Shown here: piece by piece, positions 10,769 through 14,628 of the stretch
Layout of the letters: every line of letters begins with the position of its first letter
Numbering within the stretch: the first letter of the stretch is position 1
DNA from: an uncultured Erysipelotrichaceae bacterium
Lineage (GTDB): Bacteria > Bacillota_I > Bacilli_A > Erysipelotrichales > Erysipelotrichaceae
Length of the DNA stretch: 14,628 nucleotides
Direction of reading: 5' to 3'
Assembly: GCA_902766675.1 (NCBI GenBank)
Contig: CACXEN010000071.1
Coordinates: forward strand, 1 to 14,628
The notes under the pieces: generated by a model
What the model saw: the letters and a program-made list of their open reading frames with translations, nothing else
Told to the model about the DNA's origin: nothing
The model's database searches: none
Position numbers and translations under genes: made by a program

Positions 10769-11593
10769 ATGGGAAATTGGCTAGATAGTTTACAAGATAT
10801 CAAATTAGATGAATTAGGAAATAAAAAGGTTCCTAAAAGAAATCATATTGTAAGAGTGATAAAAGAAATCCAAGGAATTCTATTTCCTAATTTTTATGAA
10901 TTTGCGAATTATGATGAAAATAAGATATCAGAATTATTGGTTGATGATTTGAATGAGATTATTAAATTGGCTTTTGCGTATGATAATAAAGAAGTTGATT
11001 CTTTTGAATATACAAATAAGATTCTAAATCAACTGCCAAAAATAAAAGAATATTTATTAACGGATATTACCGCAATTTATAATGGTGATCCAGCTGCTAA
11101 ATCCAAAGCAGAAATTGTTTTATGTTATCCGGGATTTTATGCAATTATGATATATCGCATTGCGCATGAGTTTTATGATTTAAAGATTCCTTATATTGCT
11201 AGAATAATGACGGAATATGCGCATGAAAAAACAGGGATTGATATTAATCCTGGTGCAACAATTGGCAAATATTTTTGCATAGACCATGGAACAGGAATTG
11301 TAATAGGGGAAACAGCAGTCATTGGTGAAAATGTGAAATTGTACCAAGGTGTAACAATTGGCGCAAAAAGTTTTGAATTGGATGAGAATGGCAATCCTTT
11401 AAAAGAAGGAAAAAGACATCCGGATATTGGTAATAATGTGGTAATTTATGCAAATGCGACTATTTTAGGAGGAGAAACAAAAATAGGCGACAATTGTGTC
11501 ATCGGTGGTAACGTTTGGTTTATCGGCGAAGCAAAAGAAGGAACGACACTTTACTACAATGACAAAGATATTGTTAAACAAAAGAAACTTTAA
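10769..11593 (+). CDS. cysE: Serine O-acetyltransferase (EpsC-type CysE)
   Basis: This 274-residue enzyme makes O-acetylserine from serine and acetyl-CoA, supplying CysK encoded just upstream. The N-terminal helical part (IQGILFPNFYEF) is of the longer EpsC-like type. The C-terminal half is a left-handed beta helix with hexapeptide repeats: INPGATIG, IDHGTGIVIGETAVIG, VKLYQGVTIGAKS. D158 and H173, spaced 15 residues apart as in E. coli (D143/H158), are the catalytic pair. GAGGA within the cysK end acts as the ribosome site. The protein ends in KQKKL and lacks the terminal isoleucine that lets typical CysE bind into the CysK active site, so the usual cysteine synthase complex may be altered or absent. 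Confidence 0.94.
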   Translation: MGNWLDSLQDIKLDELGNKKVPKRNHIVRVIKEIQGILFPNFYEFANYDENKISELLVDDLNEIIKLAFAYDNKEVDSFEYTNKILNQLPKIKEYLLTDITAIYNGDPAAKSKAEIVLCYPGFYAIMIYRIAHEFYDLKIPYIARIMTEYAHEKTGIDINPGATIGKYFCIDHGTGIVIGETAVIGENVKLYQGVTIGAKSFELDENGNPLKEGKRHPDIGNNVVIYANATILGGETKIGDNCVIGGNVWFIGEAKEGTTLYYNDKDIVKQKKL

Positions 11594-11620
11594 ATGCCAA
11601 AGATACCGAATTGAAAATAG

Positions 11621-11761
11621 TTAAAAAAAGAAGATAGGTAATGTGAACTTCTGTGTGGGTAAAACCGTATAATAGATTTGTCCGATTATATCCATCGCAA
11701 ATAGGATAGGACAATCTGTTTCATATATATTTTTATCTATTGGTAAATCTTTTTTAGCGAT
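11621..11761 (-). pseudogene. Decayed N-terminal fragment of an HxlR-family regulator
   Basis: On the reverse strand a strong AAAGGAG site (11775-11769) lies 7 bases before ATC GCT AAA AAA, where a start codon is expected. The frame runs 46 codons and encodes AKKDLPID, then DCPILFAMDIIGQ. The cysteine-proline pair followed by a helix ending in IIGG/Q and then KW is the hallmark N-terminus of HxlR winged-helix regulators. Here the match stops after GQ, where KWK is expected (IYYTVLP instead), and the DNA-binding part is missing. The sequence then reaches a stop beside a small hairpin with a T-run (11652-11623 on this strand). Start mutation (ATG to ATC) plus deletion is the simplest reading. 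The family call rests on a short segment. Confidence 0.5.
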
Positions 11762-11821
11762 TTAATTACTCCTTTAGTAATATCTATATTGTAAAAGTGT
11801 CACAGTTTAAGAGTTTAAAAT

Positions 11822-11847
11822 GAGAAGATGAAATCTTCTCTATTTTT
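11822..11847 (+). terminator. Intrinsic terminator downstream of cysKE
   Basis: GAGAAGAT (11822-11829) pairs with ATCTTCTC (11833-11840) around a GAA loop, followed by TATTTTT. It probably ends the cysKE transcript after it crosses the regulator remnant, and it insulates the operon beyond. Confidence 0.85.
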
Positions 11848-11903
11848 GTAAATGGGCTAAGGTATCAATAAGCAGTATTTTATGAAATGAAAAGAGATAA
11901 TTA

Positions 11904-11912
11904 TGCTATATT
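11904..11912 (+). promoter_or_regulatory. Promoter of the DUF4299-SUFU operon (extended -10)
   Basis: TGCTATATT contains a TGn element and TATATT (11907-11912); the -35 is poor. The predicted leader is about 85 bases. It lies after the terminator, so it is the only good candidate for the operon. Confidence 0.5.
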
Positions 11913-12003
11913 GTTAAAAAGAAGATAACTATGATGGACACTGGTAATTAATATCATTCATTTATGAAAGAAAGTAATAAATCGAAGTTCATGAGGAGGA
12001 TGC

Positions 12004-12912
12004 ATGGGTGTTGATGTAAGAATAAAGAACAGACAAATAATCAAAAAGGCTTTAAAAATTGAGGACATAACCCTGGGAAAGTACAAGTATGGTTCATTGG
12101 ATGACTATTGGAGAAACACCGGAGAACTTGCAGAAGGATATAATGTACTCTATGATCCAAACCATATTGGAAGAGGTATGGAATTCAAGTGGTCCAACAA
12201 TCTTAAGGATGAAATAGAACTTAGAGTAAACTTTCTATCTACAAAGTATGACATTGAAATGTTTTATGAAGTAATTCGAAACATCTTAAACGTGTGGAAG
12301 GTAAAACAATTTGATCATGACGCTTCTACTTGCACAATTGATGATTTAGATGCGCTTTATCAGTCATCTAAAGAATTCAATCTAGACTATATGTCTAACC
12401 AAGACATTGTTCCCGATAAATCCGAAAGCAACATTATTACCATTTTTGGTGCTATGTATCCAATAGATATTGATAAAAAACTTATTAAATCATATGGAGA
12501 GAATGAAGATGAAGACGGCTATGCTAACTACTTGCATAATCTACAATATCCAGACGCATATTATGCAGTTCCAATCATTTACTCATTGAACGATACAGAG
12601 TTTTTTGGCAATTATGTAATAACAGCAGAAACCGATACACTTTTCCCTAAGAGAGCAAGAGATCCGATGATGTTTAAAGACCCTAACACCGGAGAACAAT
12701 TAAAATGTAAATTCTTTGTTGTAACGCTTGTTTCTTTAGAAAAGAAAAGTGCAGTTGGTAGAATGGATTTTGATGAATTCGTTGATAAAGTAAATATTGC
12801 GAATTGCCCCCAACATGACATGACACGTGTTTTCTTGGAAGGATTATCTGAAGAAAAAATAGCTGAACTTACTGAATCCGAACATTATGATCCTTTAACA
12901 GAAGCCAAATAA
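12004..12912 (+). CDS. DUF4299-like protein
   Basis: A 302-residue soluble protein. The opening MGVDVRIKNR, the segment IGRGMEF followed by a strand ELRVNFLST and a helix FYEVIRNILNVW, and the later strand IFGAMYPIDID follow the layout I know from DUF4299 proteins of streptococci and other Firmicutes (about 270-315 residues, function unknown). Such proteins often stand among toxin-immunity genes. The ribosome site GAGGAGGA is strong but close (4 bases after AGGAGG). The gene lacks the MGLFD tag of the genes that follow. Early codons use C- and G-ending forms (GAC, TAC, ACC, AAG) more than cysE does, hinting at a different origin. It is the first gene of the terminal operon, 26 bases before the next. 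Confidence 0.7.
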   Translation: MGVDVRIKNRQIIKKALKIEDITLGKYKYGSLDDYWRNTGELAEGYNVLYDPNHIGRGMEFKWSNNLKDEIELRVNFLSTKYDIEMFYEVIRNILNVWKVKQFDHDASTCTIDDLDALYQSSKEFNLDYMSNQDIVPDKSESNIITIFGAMYPIDIDKKLIKSYGENEDEDGYANYLHNLQYPDAYYAVPIIYSLNDTEFFGNYVITAETDTLFPKRARDPMMFKDPNTGEQLKCKFFVVTLVSLEKKSAVGRMDFDEFVDKVNIANCPQHDMTRVFLEGLSEEKIAELTESEHYDPLTEAK

Positions 12913-12938
12913 ATCACAATTTATGAGGGAGAATAATT

Positions 12939-13619
12939 ATGGGCCTATTTGATATGTTTAAGAAAAAAGAAATTGCTCAAGAAGAGGTGTCTAGCAAACC
13001 TGAAGAAAAAGAAGTTGAAGCGATTGGTTGGAAGGCAATTGAACAAGAATTCCTAAGGGTTTATCCTGGCCAGACAAATCCAAAACACTATGGAACGATT
13101 TTACCGTGGATGCTTGGTGGTAATGATCCACTAGATGGAATTAGTGTATATGATGGAGGGAATTACTGGCACTTTGTTTCGTTTGGTCAAACAGAAATTT
13201 ATGAAAAAGAAAGTGATGTTAAAGAAATTAGTGGTTATGGCTATGAATTGACATTGAAGTTAAAAAAAGATGACTACGAAGATGAAGAGGCAGAGATTAG
13301 AAATATCTGCGGAATCCTACAGATGGTTGCGAGATTAACATTTACTAAAAAAGAGATTTTCCAACCATTTGAATTTCTTTATACTGGTCAAACAACAGGA
13401 ATTGATGCAAAGCAAAAGTCTAATCTAACTGGCTTTATTACAATAAAAGATCCTACAGTAGAAACAATCGATACACCAAATGGAAAAGTAGAATTTGTAG
13501 AGCTTATTGGAATGACAGATGCTGAACTAAAAACACTTTCAACAGTTGGCTCTGTCATGGAGATATATGAAAAACTAGGTTCAGATATTACAGATTATCA
13601 TCGTGAATCTATTGTTTAA
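12939..13619 (+). CDS. SUFU-domain protein with MGLFD N-terminal tag (copy 1)
   Basis: A 226-residue protein. Residues 1-9 (MGLFDMFKK) are an amphipathic tag, then a Glu/Lys-rich linker runs to about residue 28. From about 30 to 170 is a suppressor-of-fused (SUFU) domain: GWKAIEQEF, HYGTILPWMLGGNDPLDGISVY, WHFVSFGQTEIYEKES and SGYGYELTLKL are its conserved blocks. Bacterial SUFU proteins have been proposed as immunity proteins that neutralise secreted polymorphic toxins; the partner toxin is not in the window. The C-terminal part (IDTPNGKVEFVELIGMTDAEL) continues the family's usual extension. GAGGGAG (12925-12931) is 7 bases before the start. Confidence 0.88.
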   Translation: MGLFDMFKKKEIAQEEVSSKPEEKEVEAIGWKAIEQEFLRVYPGQTNPKHYGTILPWMLGGNDPLDGISVYDGGNYWHFVSFGQTEIYEKESDVKEISGYGYELTLKLKKDDYEDEEAEIRNICGILQMVARLTFTKKEIFQPFEFLYTGQTTGIDAKQKSNLTGFITIKDPTVETIDTPNGKVEFVELIGMTDAELKTLSTVGSVMEIYEKLGSDITDYHRESIV

Positions 13620-13633
13620 TAGAAAAGAGTAAA

Positions 13634-13664
13634 TATGGGATTATTTGATAAGTTTAAGAAAAAT
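13634..13664 (+). repeat. 31-bp direct repeat encoding the MGLFDKFKKN tag (copy 1)
   Basis: Identical to 14331-14361, base for base, beginning one base before each ATG. Downstream of the repeat the two genes are unrelated. Confidence 0.95.
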
Positions 13665-14321
13665 AAAAAAGATAATAAAGAAACAACTATATTACAGTAT
13701 CTATATGATGATAATGAAATCGAAATAATTGATGAATTTATCAGTGATACATTTGGTAAGTATGAAAGCGTATTTCATGAAATTGCATCTCCAGATATAC
13801 ATCTTGATGTATGTCTTGTAGATCCTAGTGAAGAGCAGCCATACTATAAGCTAGTGACTATGGGGGCAGGCGCTTATCGCATGAAGATTCCTCAAGAATA
13901 CGAAAAATATCATTTAGAATATGCAGAATATGTAATTTATTTACCAAAGGATTGGGATATTAAAAGTAATAAAGACGAAGATTATTGGCCTATTAGATTA
14001 CTAAAAGATACTGCACGTTTACCAATTTGGAATGACACCTGGCTCTCTTATGGTCATACAAGTCAAAGCGATGCTGAAGGTTCTCAATATGCATCTAATA
14101 CAAGATTTAATAGTATCGTTTTGAATTATGCCGGAGATAATAGACTGATTATGCCAAATGGCAAAATAATAAACTTCTATGAAATTATTCCATTATATCC
14201 TGAGGAATTGGATTTCAAATTACAAAACGATGCTGACACATTGTTTGATATGTTTCATAAGAAGAATATTCAATATAAAGTAATTGATTTAAACAGAGAA
14301 AGTGCAATCAAAAATGTGTGA
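13635..14321 (+). CDS. SUFU-domain protein with MGLFD N-terminal tag (copy 2)
   Basis: The 228-residue protein begins MGLFDKFKKN followed by a lysine-rich linker. The body is a second, clearly different SUFU-type domain: FHEIASPDIHLDVCLVDPSE, YYKLVTMGAGAYRM, AEYVIYLPKDWDI and the later ARLPIWNDTWLSYGHT are the blocks seen in the short bacterial SUFU group. It shares little sequence with the SUFU protein before it outside the N-terminal tag, so it is not a simple tandem duplicate. The ribosome site is weak (AGAG, 13626-13629), and the start lies 15 bases after the upstream stop, implying co-translation. The likely role is toxin immunity, by inference from the family. Confidence 0.85.
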   Translation: MGLFDKFKKNKKDNKETTILQYLYDDNEIEIIDEFISDTFGKYESVFHEIASPDIHLDVCLVDPSEEQPYYKLVTMGAGAYRMKIPQEYEKYHLEYAEYVIYLPKDWDIKSNKDEDYWPIRLLKDTARLPIWNDTWLSYGHTSQSDAEGSQYASNTRFNSIVLNYAGDNRLIMPNGKIINFYEIIPLYPEELDFKLQNDADTLFDMFHKKNIQYKVIDLNRESAIKNV

Positions 14322-14330
14322 GGAAAATAT

Positions 14331-14361
14331 TATGGGATTATTTGATAAGTTTAAGAAAAAT
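14331..14361 (+). repeat. 31-bp direct repeat encoding the MGLFDKFKKN tag (copy 2)
   Basis: Second copy of the repeat at 13634-13664, at the start of the next gene. Confidence 0.95.
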
Positions 14362-14628
14362 GAAACTAGTGTTTGGGATAACGCTTATAAAGCTAATCCC
14401 CAATTCTATGCTAAAGATGACGGAAGTCCTTTTGGCGCATTTGCAGTGACGGAAGGCACTGAAACGATTTTGCCAAAGGCACCGAATTATGCAGTCGATG
14501 GTAATGTAATCTCTGATTATAGACTTATGTTAGTAAGTACAACGAAAGATGGCGTGATTGGCGATGTAGACTACTTTGAGGCTTTATCAAAACTGGATCA
14601 ATTTAAACTTGATGAAAATGAGAATGAG
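14332..14628 (+). CDS. Unrecognised protein with MGLFD N-terminal tag (3' end outside window)
   Basis: The first 99 codons of a gene cut by the right edge. It opens with MGLFDKFKKN and then NETSVWDNAYKANPQFYAKDDG, PFGAFAVTEGTETILP, DYRLMLVSTTKDGVIGDVDYFEAL. No SUFU blocks are visible, and I do not recognise a named domain. The aromatic-rich, acidic character suits a small cytoplasmic immunity-type protein, but that is inferred from the neighbours only. It starts 10 bases after the previous stop, whose TGA is part of the ribosome site TGAGGA (14319-14324), so it is the fourth gene of the same operon. Confidence 0.85.
   Translation, partial: MGLFDKFKKNETSVWDNAYKANPQFYAKDDGSPFGAFAVTEGTETILPKAPNYAVDGNVISDYRLMLVSTTKDGVIGDVDYFEALSKLDQFKLDENENE

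Follow-up and report, generated by a model that had tools for sequence, protein, structure and literature searches.

A candidate polyimmunity operon of an uncultured Erysipelotrichaceae bacterium in which genes of unrelated families share a short N-terminal tag

Gene content and protein families of the operon

The stretch of DNA analyzed here (the window) comprises 14,628 nucleotides of contig CACXEN010000071.1 from an uncultured Erysipelotrichaceae bacterium with relatives among species of the ruminant gut, read on the forward strand, and its last part contains a compact group of genes that we examined as a candidate polyimmunity operon. Four plus-strand genes begin 410 bases after cysE. Gene 1 (12004-12912) encodes a DUF4299 protein of 302 residues, genes 2 (12939-13619) and 3 (13635-14321) encode SUFU proteins of 226 and 228 residues, referred to as types A and B, and gene 4 (14332-14628) encodes a short DUF4299-type protein of which 99 residues could be read. 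These coordinates agreed with the first-pass annotation of the sequence, which had described four genes separated by spacers of 26, 15 and 10 bases. The window ends exactly at the contig end (14628), inside gene 4, and hence the operon continues beyond it, as had been predicted. Genes 2 to 4 have a common start of about 10 residues, MGLFDxFKK (MGLFDMFKKK in gene 2 and MGLFDKFKKN in genes 3 and 4), which had gone unnoticed in that annotation and is termed the tag below.

Profile searches with Pfam were performed on the four proteins. Gene 1 matched DUF4299 (PF14132) with an E value of 2.3e-12 and 47.7 bits, passing the curated cut-off of 31 bits, and genes 2 and 3 matched SUFU (PF05076) with E values of 3.2e-25 (89.4 bits) and 2e-35 (122.7 bits), above the curated cut-off of 25 bits. 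These matches confirmed the three assignments that had been proposed from the letters alone and removed one objection that the first-pass annotation had foreseen, namely, a lack of SUFU and DUF4299 matches. The fourth protein, which had been described as unrecognized, matched positions 188 to 253 of the DUF4299 model with an E value of 8.7e-6 and 26 bits, below the cut-off of 31 bits, and this gene is truncated. Two full-length relatives of gene 4 also scored below the PF14132 cut-off (21.9 and 28.4 bits), and a precomputed PF14132 label was present on most gene 4 homologues among the matches listed. These relatives were about 113 to 124 residues long when alone, and larger forms of 212 and 354 residues had extra domains. 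AlphaFold models had a mean predicted local distance difference test (pLDDT) score of 93.4 for gene 1 and 88.6 for a gene 4 relative, in which residues 1 to 10, corresponding to the tag, had a mean of 53. In the latter model, strands and helices follow one another as in the C-terminal half of gene 1, and the preferred reading of gene 4 is accordingly that of a putative stand-alone C-terminal domain of the DUF4299 type. Searches with PADLOC and NCBIfam returned nothing for the four proteins.

Heterogeneous polyimmunity loci have been described as sets of unrelated immunity genes on one strand, with small gaps, no toxin gene inside and variable content (Zhang et al. 2012, PMC3482391). All four genes of the window lie on the plus strand with small gaps, and no toxin gene was present between them in the part within the window. 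Unrelated immunity-type families stand side by side, with two SUFU and two DUF4299-type genes in the window and Imm33 besides in a related array, L248. The number and type of genes varied among the window, L248 and a further array, L249, which belong to genomes of different species. L194 and L248 are one 3,611-base contig from the genus of the window, with the order small membrane protein, SUFU, short DUF4299 with a tail, YcxB-like protein (below cut-off), lipoprotein and Imm33 (E value of 1.4e-16). Protein identity between L248 and the window was 90% for SUFU (with gene 2) and 85% for the short DUF4299 protein (with gene 4, across 98 residues). The L249 array consists of SUFU and then a short DUF4299-DUF4241 gene, and directly after it (11204-13705) lie a phage-integrase family gene, a helix-turn-helix regulator and a Tn916-type excisionase (Xis). 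In L269, a similar integrase immediately precedes a short DUF4299 gene with a broken frame.

Fusions to immunity domains were detected for both families. Short DUF4299 domains were fused to Imm33 (P0142), to GAD-like and T6SS_Tdi1_C domains (L198) and to DUF4241 (L249); these DUF4299 parts all scored below the Pfam cut-off and were 70%, 42% and 65% identical, respectively, to a gene 4 relative. A full DUF4299 was fused to DUF7832 (L218). In L218 (5863-10149), the fusion gene is flanked on each side by two opposite-strand genes encoding 204 to 246 residues, and those four had no Pfam match over cut-off. Three SUFU relatives of gene 3 in the same family were giant proteins of 1,477 to 2,265 residues (L183, 7970-14767; L184, 6705-11138; L185, 5219-11437), in which SUFU was followed by DUF7832 and each of which contained at least two of Imm68, Imm33, SUKH, DUF4261, DUF4253 and DUF7832. 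DUF4299 has no Imm designation of its own, and these fusions are the basis for regarding it as an immunity-type family. On a Campylobacter plasmid, an AHH-domain gene, DUF1629 and a tagless short DUF4299 (20.2 bits, below cut-off) occurred in that order. For such a short DUF4299 protein in Campylobacter type VI secretion system (T6SS) regions, the authors who described it offered an adaptor or chaperone role as speculation (PMC8285248); we read it as immunity-type. Matches on plasmids comprised 32 records, all from Campylobacter, with identity below 60% and query coverage short of 80% in every case, and no match was found in phages or viral contigs.

Overall, these features supported the poly-immunity reading put forward by the first-pass annotation, in that the locus, as far as the window reaches, has the makeup of a heterogeneous polyimmunity operon, a related operon contains Imm33 and the gene 4 domain is found fused to immunity domains. 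The families and their context suggested an immunity function for the products. Such products would most likely be cytoplasmic and would bind and neutralize toxins delivered by rival bacteria, with each body (SUFU or DUF4299) acting against its own range of toxins.

Tag DNA and differences between arrays

The tags were compared at the DNA level. Those of genes 3 (13635-13664) and 4 (14332-14361) were identical at 30/30 nucleotides, and the tag of gene 2 (12939-12968) had 26/30 nucleotides in common with both. In L248, an identical run of 48 nucleotides was shared by the SUFU and short DUF4299 genes and began 11 nucleotides before the start codon; the Imm33 gene had 36 nucleotides in common with this run and also shared part of the SUFU linker. 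Thus, tag DNA was identical between unrelated genes in two arrays. The lipoprotein-like gene of L248 (2264-2785) starts with MGLLDKIKK, directly before its signal peptide. Chance agreement over eight tag codons was calculated as 0.7% for two genes with the codon use of the window and 0.008% for three genes with that of L248. Codons for shared residues agreed in 57/64 cases within arrays versus 73/117 in same-genome pairs outside arrays, although the pairs are not independent and, for one pair of the outside set, both members may represent a single gene on two contigs. In a draw of 395 genomes of the class, a 29-base form of the tag occurred in one, that of the window, where it was present twice; the genome of L248 was outside that draw.

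Alignment of the arrays located their differences at the tag. Positions 12936-13663 of the window aligned with L249 without gaps at 90% identity (blastn). This block ended at the 29th base of gene 3, inside the tag, and the next aligned stretch began at 14331, the base immediately preceding gene 4. Identity was 38/40 and 8/8 just before the border and then fell to 12, 8, 9 and 7 of 25 after it. With L248, the first block ended at 13671 and the second began at 14317, placing the same border within 8 and 15 bases. As the alignment broke at the tag and resumed at gene 4, the window contains, between genes 2 and 4, one extra unit that extends from tag to tag (13664-14331; gene 3 body and spacer) and is missing from both the L249 and L248 arrays. 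Wider differences were also present, with gene 1 found only ahead of the window array and other genes downstream in L248. Gene 4 showed a mosaic pattern, with complete identity to L249 over its final 87 bases (14542-14628) and a match of only 61/90 in the stretch ahead of them (14451-14540). In L291, the tag was joined straight to DUF4241, in comparison with the order of tag, DUF4299 domain and DUF4241 in L249.

A misjoining of contigs at the repeated tag could have produced the difference between the window and its relatives. Short repeats are where assemblers misjoin, both relatives are metagenome-assembled genomes, the window assembly has 251 contigs, and the window breaks off within gene 4. 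However, the L249 array is internal to a contig of 227 kb, and the order of SUFU and then short DUF4299 recurs independently in L248; we considered an artifact of this type very improbable.

The border at the tag suggested a biological explanation. Each tagged gene would consist of a constant 5' module of about 10 codons, together with 11 upstream bases in one array, placed before a variable body. Because module DNA is nearly identical in neighboring genes, recombination between copies could add or drop one gene unit while preserving the reading frame and a functional start. The tag thus looks like the joint at which genes are gained and lost, as judged from the alignments, and we infer that recombination caused the differences between arrays. 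The combined reading, in which the operon is a heterogeneous polyimmunity operon, three of its genes are a constant 5' tag module plus a variable body and recombination between tags adds or removes units, was regarded as moderately probable.

Distribution of the tag and possible membrane docking

The occurrence of the tag outside arrays bears on an alternative in which selection on the peptide, together with the codon preference of AT-rich genomes, produced the likeness of the tags in an ordinary polyimmunity locus, with no recombination at them. A DNA pattern for the tag start was found in 32/70 genus genomes, with 0 matches for a reversed control, and a stricter pattern gave 25 matches in 21/272 family genomes. 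A Pfam scan of all 25 strict matches identified 12 immunity-type proteins (5 SUFU, 2 Imm33, 1 DUF4241, 1 DUF7832 and 3 short DUF4299 below cut-off), 6 EIIA proteins of the phosphotransferase system, 2 SRP54-type GTPases and 5 others (one DUF6985, one TerB-like below cut-off and three without a match). The DUF6985 protein (L279, 2-604) belongs to a family of unknown function. The GTPases (L280 and L281), which we take to be FtsY by length and start, have 315 to 317 residues, come from another genus and start with MGFFDKLKK. Among the matches listed, the strict tag started 96/120 SUFU proteins (of 1,544 homologues, found with gene 2), 72/120 short DUF4299 proteins (of 210) and 7/20 Imm33 proteins, with two more of the latter having it at an inner methionine.

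This presence on many single genes, including those for EIIA-Glc and SRP54-type GTPases, indicated that the likeness is due in part to selection on the protein. The 20-nucleotide start ATGGGATTATTTGATAAGTT also recurred on lone short DUF4299 genes of other bacteria, and same-genome pairs outside arrays still agreed at most of their shared codons. Selection and codon preference would nevertheless have to account for the higher codon agreement within arrays, for an identical run in L248 that begins upstream of the start codon, for the portion of the SUFU linker in the L248 Imm33 gene and for the loss of collinearity at the tag end (13663 versus L249 and 13671 versus L248). An origin of the tag likeness without recombination was therefore judged rather unlikely.

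A possible function of the tag was suggested by its likeness to a known N terminus. In an alignment, a solved EIIA-Glc protein (3our_B), which is presumably a Vibrio protein, had the start MGLFDKLKK in comparison with MGLFDKFKK here. Vibrio cholerae EIIA-Glc is anchored to the membrane by its N-terminal helix (PMC6123446; Wang et al. 2000, cited therein), although its N-terminal letters are not printed in the text of PMC6123446. That helix is longer, with 16 to 18 residues, and differs from genes 2 to 4, in which a charged segment begins some ten residues in. From the likeness to 3our_B and the anchor of V. cholerae EIIA-Glc, docking at the inner membrane was the leading idea for the tag, which may attach the protein to the membrane from the cytoplasmic side in the manner of the EIIA-Glc N terminus.

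Amphipathicity was examined by means of the hydrophobic moment. The value for MGLFDKFKKKE was 0.34, which was matched by 35% of 1,047 other N termini, and values of 0.54 and 0.28 were obtained for the start of 3our_B and an EIIA protein of the genus. The tag was thus unexceptional in amphipathicity and was not classed as an anchor. This ordinary moment and the low modeling confidence of the tag ahead of a well-folded domain would both be expected of a leader for translation or solubility that has no membrane role, and such a leader is plausible, if short of probable; the near identity to the N terminus of a solved EIIA-Glc, a protein whose N-terminal helix binds the membrane in V. cholerae, argues against it. 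Overall, the chance that the tag docks at the inner membrane was put at even or lower. The most elaborate proposal, that of polymorphic immunity proteins, in which a mobile constant 5' module consists of the start region and an EIIA-Glc-like membrane-docking peptide and immunity bodies are swapped by recombination between module copies, can be put forward only tentatively.

Toxin search, genomic setting and relation to known systems

The first-pass annotation had suggested that a toxin might follow the operon. No LXG or WXG100 toxin or secretion gene was found in the window, the locus running on to the right past the contig end. In the sister genome G078, which contains L248, a WXG100 pair was followed, one gene on, by an FtsK/SpoIIIE gene (L242, 4244-10756), on a different contig from the array. 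Genus genes of about 680 residues with a WXG100 match (L238-L240) were considered as toxins and rejected, having lipoprotein-like starts and neighbors that resembled ABC transporters by eye. No toxin was recognized by eye near the SUFU and DUF4299-type genes of relatives in the stretches read (38, 20, 20 and 29), an inspection of gene starts rather than a profile search, in which several stretches had wrong-strand frames from the gene caller.

The genes could also be a regulatory or housekeeping set in which SUFU and DUF4299 bind cellular proteins at the membrane. The neighborhoods of single SUFU genes were varied, and inspection by eye showed no toxin in them; EIIA-Glc and the SRP54-type GTPase, the tagged families with a known role, are housekeeping proteins; and a distant DUF4299 clade of the genus adjoined trmD in 11/19 loci (L033, L039-L046, L048 and L050), some of which also had rimM. 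In an alignment of 18 relatives, from which three trmD-linked ones were left out, 8 trmD-linked DUF4299 proteins were 17 to 20% identical to gene 1 and 9/10 unlinked ones were 24 to 32% identical, with one at 21%. A trmD neighborhood was therefore rejected for the genes of the window, in which trmD is not present, and the conserved housekeeping neighborhood that the first-pass annotation had named as a contrary outcome was confined to the distant clade. The patchy spread of SUFU (18/60 relatives) and DUF4299 (19/60), the fusions to Imm33, Tdi1 and multiple immunity domains and the gene order of the Campylobacter plasmid also argue against housekeeping, which we considered improbable.

Several observations weigh against a polyimmunity operon assembled by recombination between tags. 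Toxins were not found with any of the tagged genes, LXG was over cut-off in 0/60 genus genomes, and the window genome, which is 91.8% complete, had no WXG100 match, though 62/70 genus genomes have one, mostly as pairs. Only three arrays with at least two tagged genes were seen, the tag is lacking from gene 1, differs at 4/30 nucleotides in gene 2 and is present on single genes outside arrays, and its hydrophobic moment is ordinary. The position of a distant clade beside trmD further indicated that not every DUF4299 protein belongs to such arrays.

Two features proposed for the region upstream of gene 1 were not upheld. A consensus scan of the plus strand between cysE and gene 1 detected no sigma-70-like promoter, in place of the promoter that had been assigned to the operon. 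The terminator said to separate it from cysKE corresponded to one terminator-like stem on the plus strand (11822-11840), which is not above chance, as shuffled sequence gave a mean of 1.1. The neighboring gene cysE was present in 45/60 genomes.

Recombinases have been suggested as a means by which antidote genes of unrelated families come together in one operon (PMC3482391). If the reading of the tag as a joint in both protein and DNA is true, it would provide a concrete mechanism for the assembly of immunity operons, arrays could gain, lose and reorder antidotes in frame, and the tag would be a simple handle for finding new immunity families. If the tag docks at the membrane, antidotes would be held where incoming toxins cross it. 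DUF4299, which is named in one paper of the open-access literature searched, would be moved into the toxin-immunity field. The class of polyimmunity loci is known; for the shared tag module, no description was found in the open-access collection searched, as judged by titles and the starts of abstracts.

The operon was compared with known systems. Orphan immunity genes are arrayed, with frequent homologous recombination, in V. cholerae T6SS clusters (PMC5361080); those arrays differ in lying in the 3' region of the clusters and in deriving from displaced effector-immunity pairs, the abstract makes no mention of a shared tag, and no secretion genes were present on the visible side of the window. 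Disparate immunity proteins are likewise encoded together in a system in which both target one adjacent toxin (PMC13392607), whereas no toxin was seen here. The Campylobacter short DUF4299 protein (PMC8285248) has the same domain (36 to 38% identity), with 116 residues, in a toxin/immunity region, but lacks the tag, and its proposed adaptor or chaperone role differs from the one suggested here. Heterogeneous polyimmunity loci (PMC3482391) resemble the operon in their unrelated immunity-type families, single strand, short gaps, lack of a toxin between genes and variable content; a recombinase, which is an optional neighbor in several such loci, lies beside one related array (L249). The operon differs from them in its common N-terminal tag, which extends to the DNA, and in the location of the array difference at this tag. 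The covered parts of that paper do not mention a shared tag, and "amphipathic" and "DUF4299" have no occurrence in its text. Polymorphic toxins (PMC3482391) also have a constant front and a variable body exchanged by recombination, but in these the C-terminal toxin varies, whereas here immunity-type bodies vary behind a constant part of only about 10 residues. We propose that immunity genes with a constant tag and a variable body are a mirror image of polymorphic toxins.

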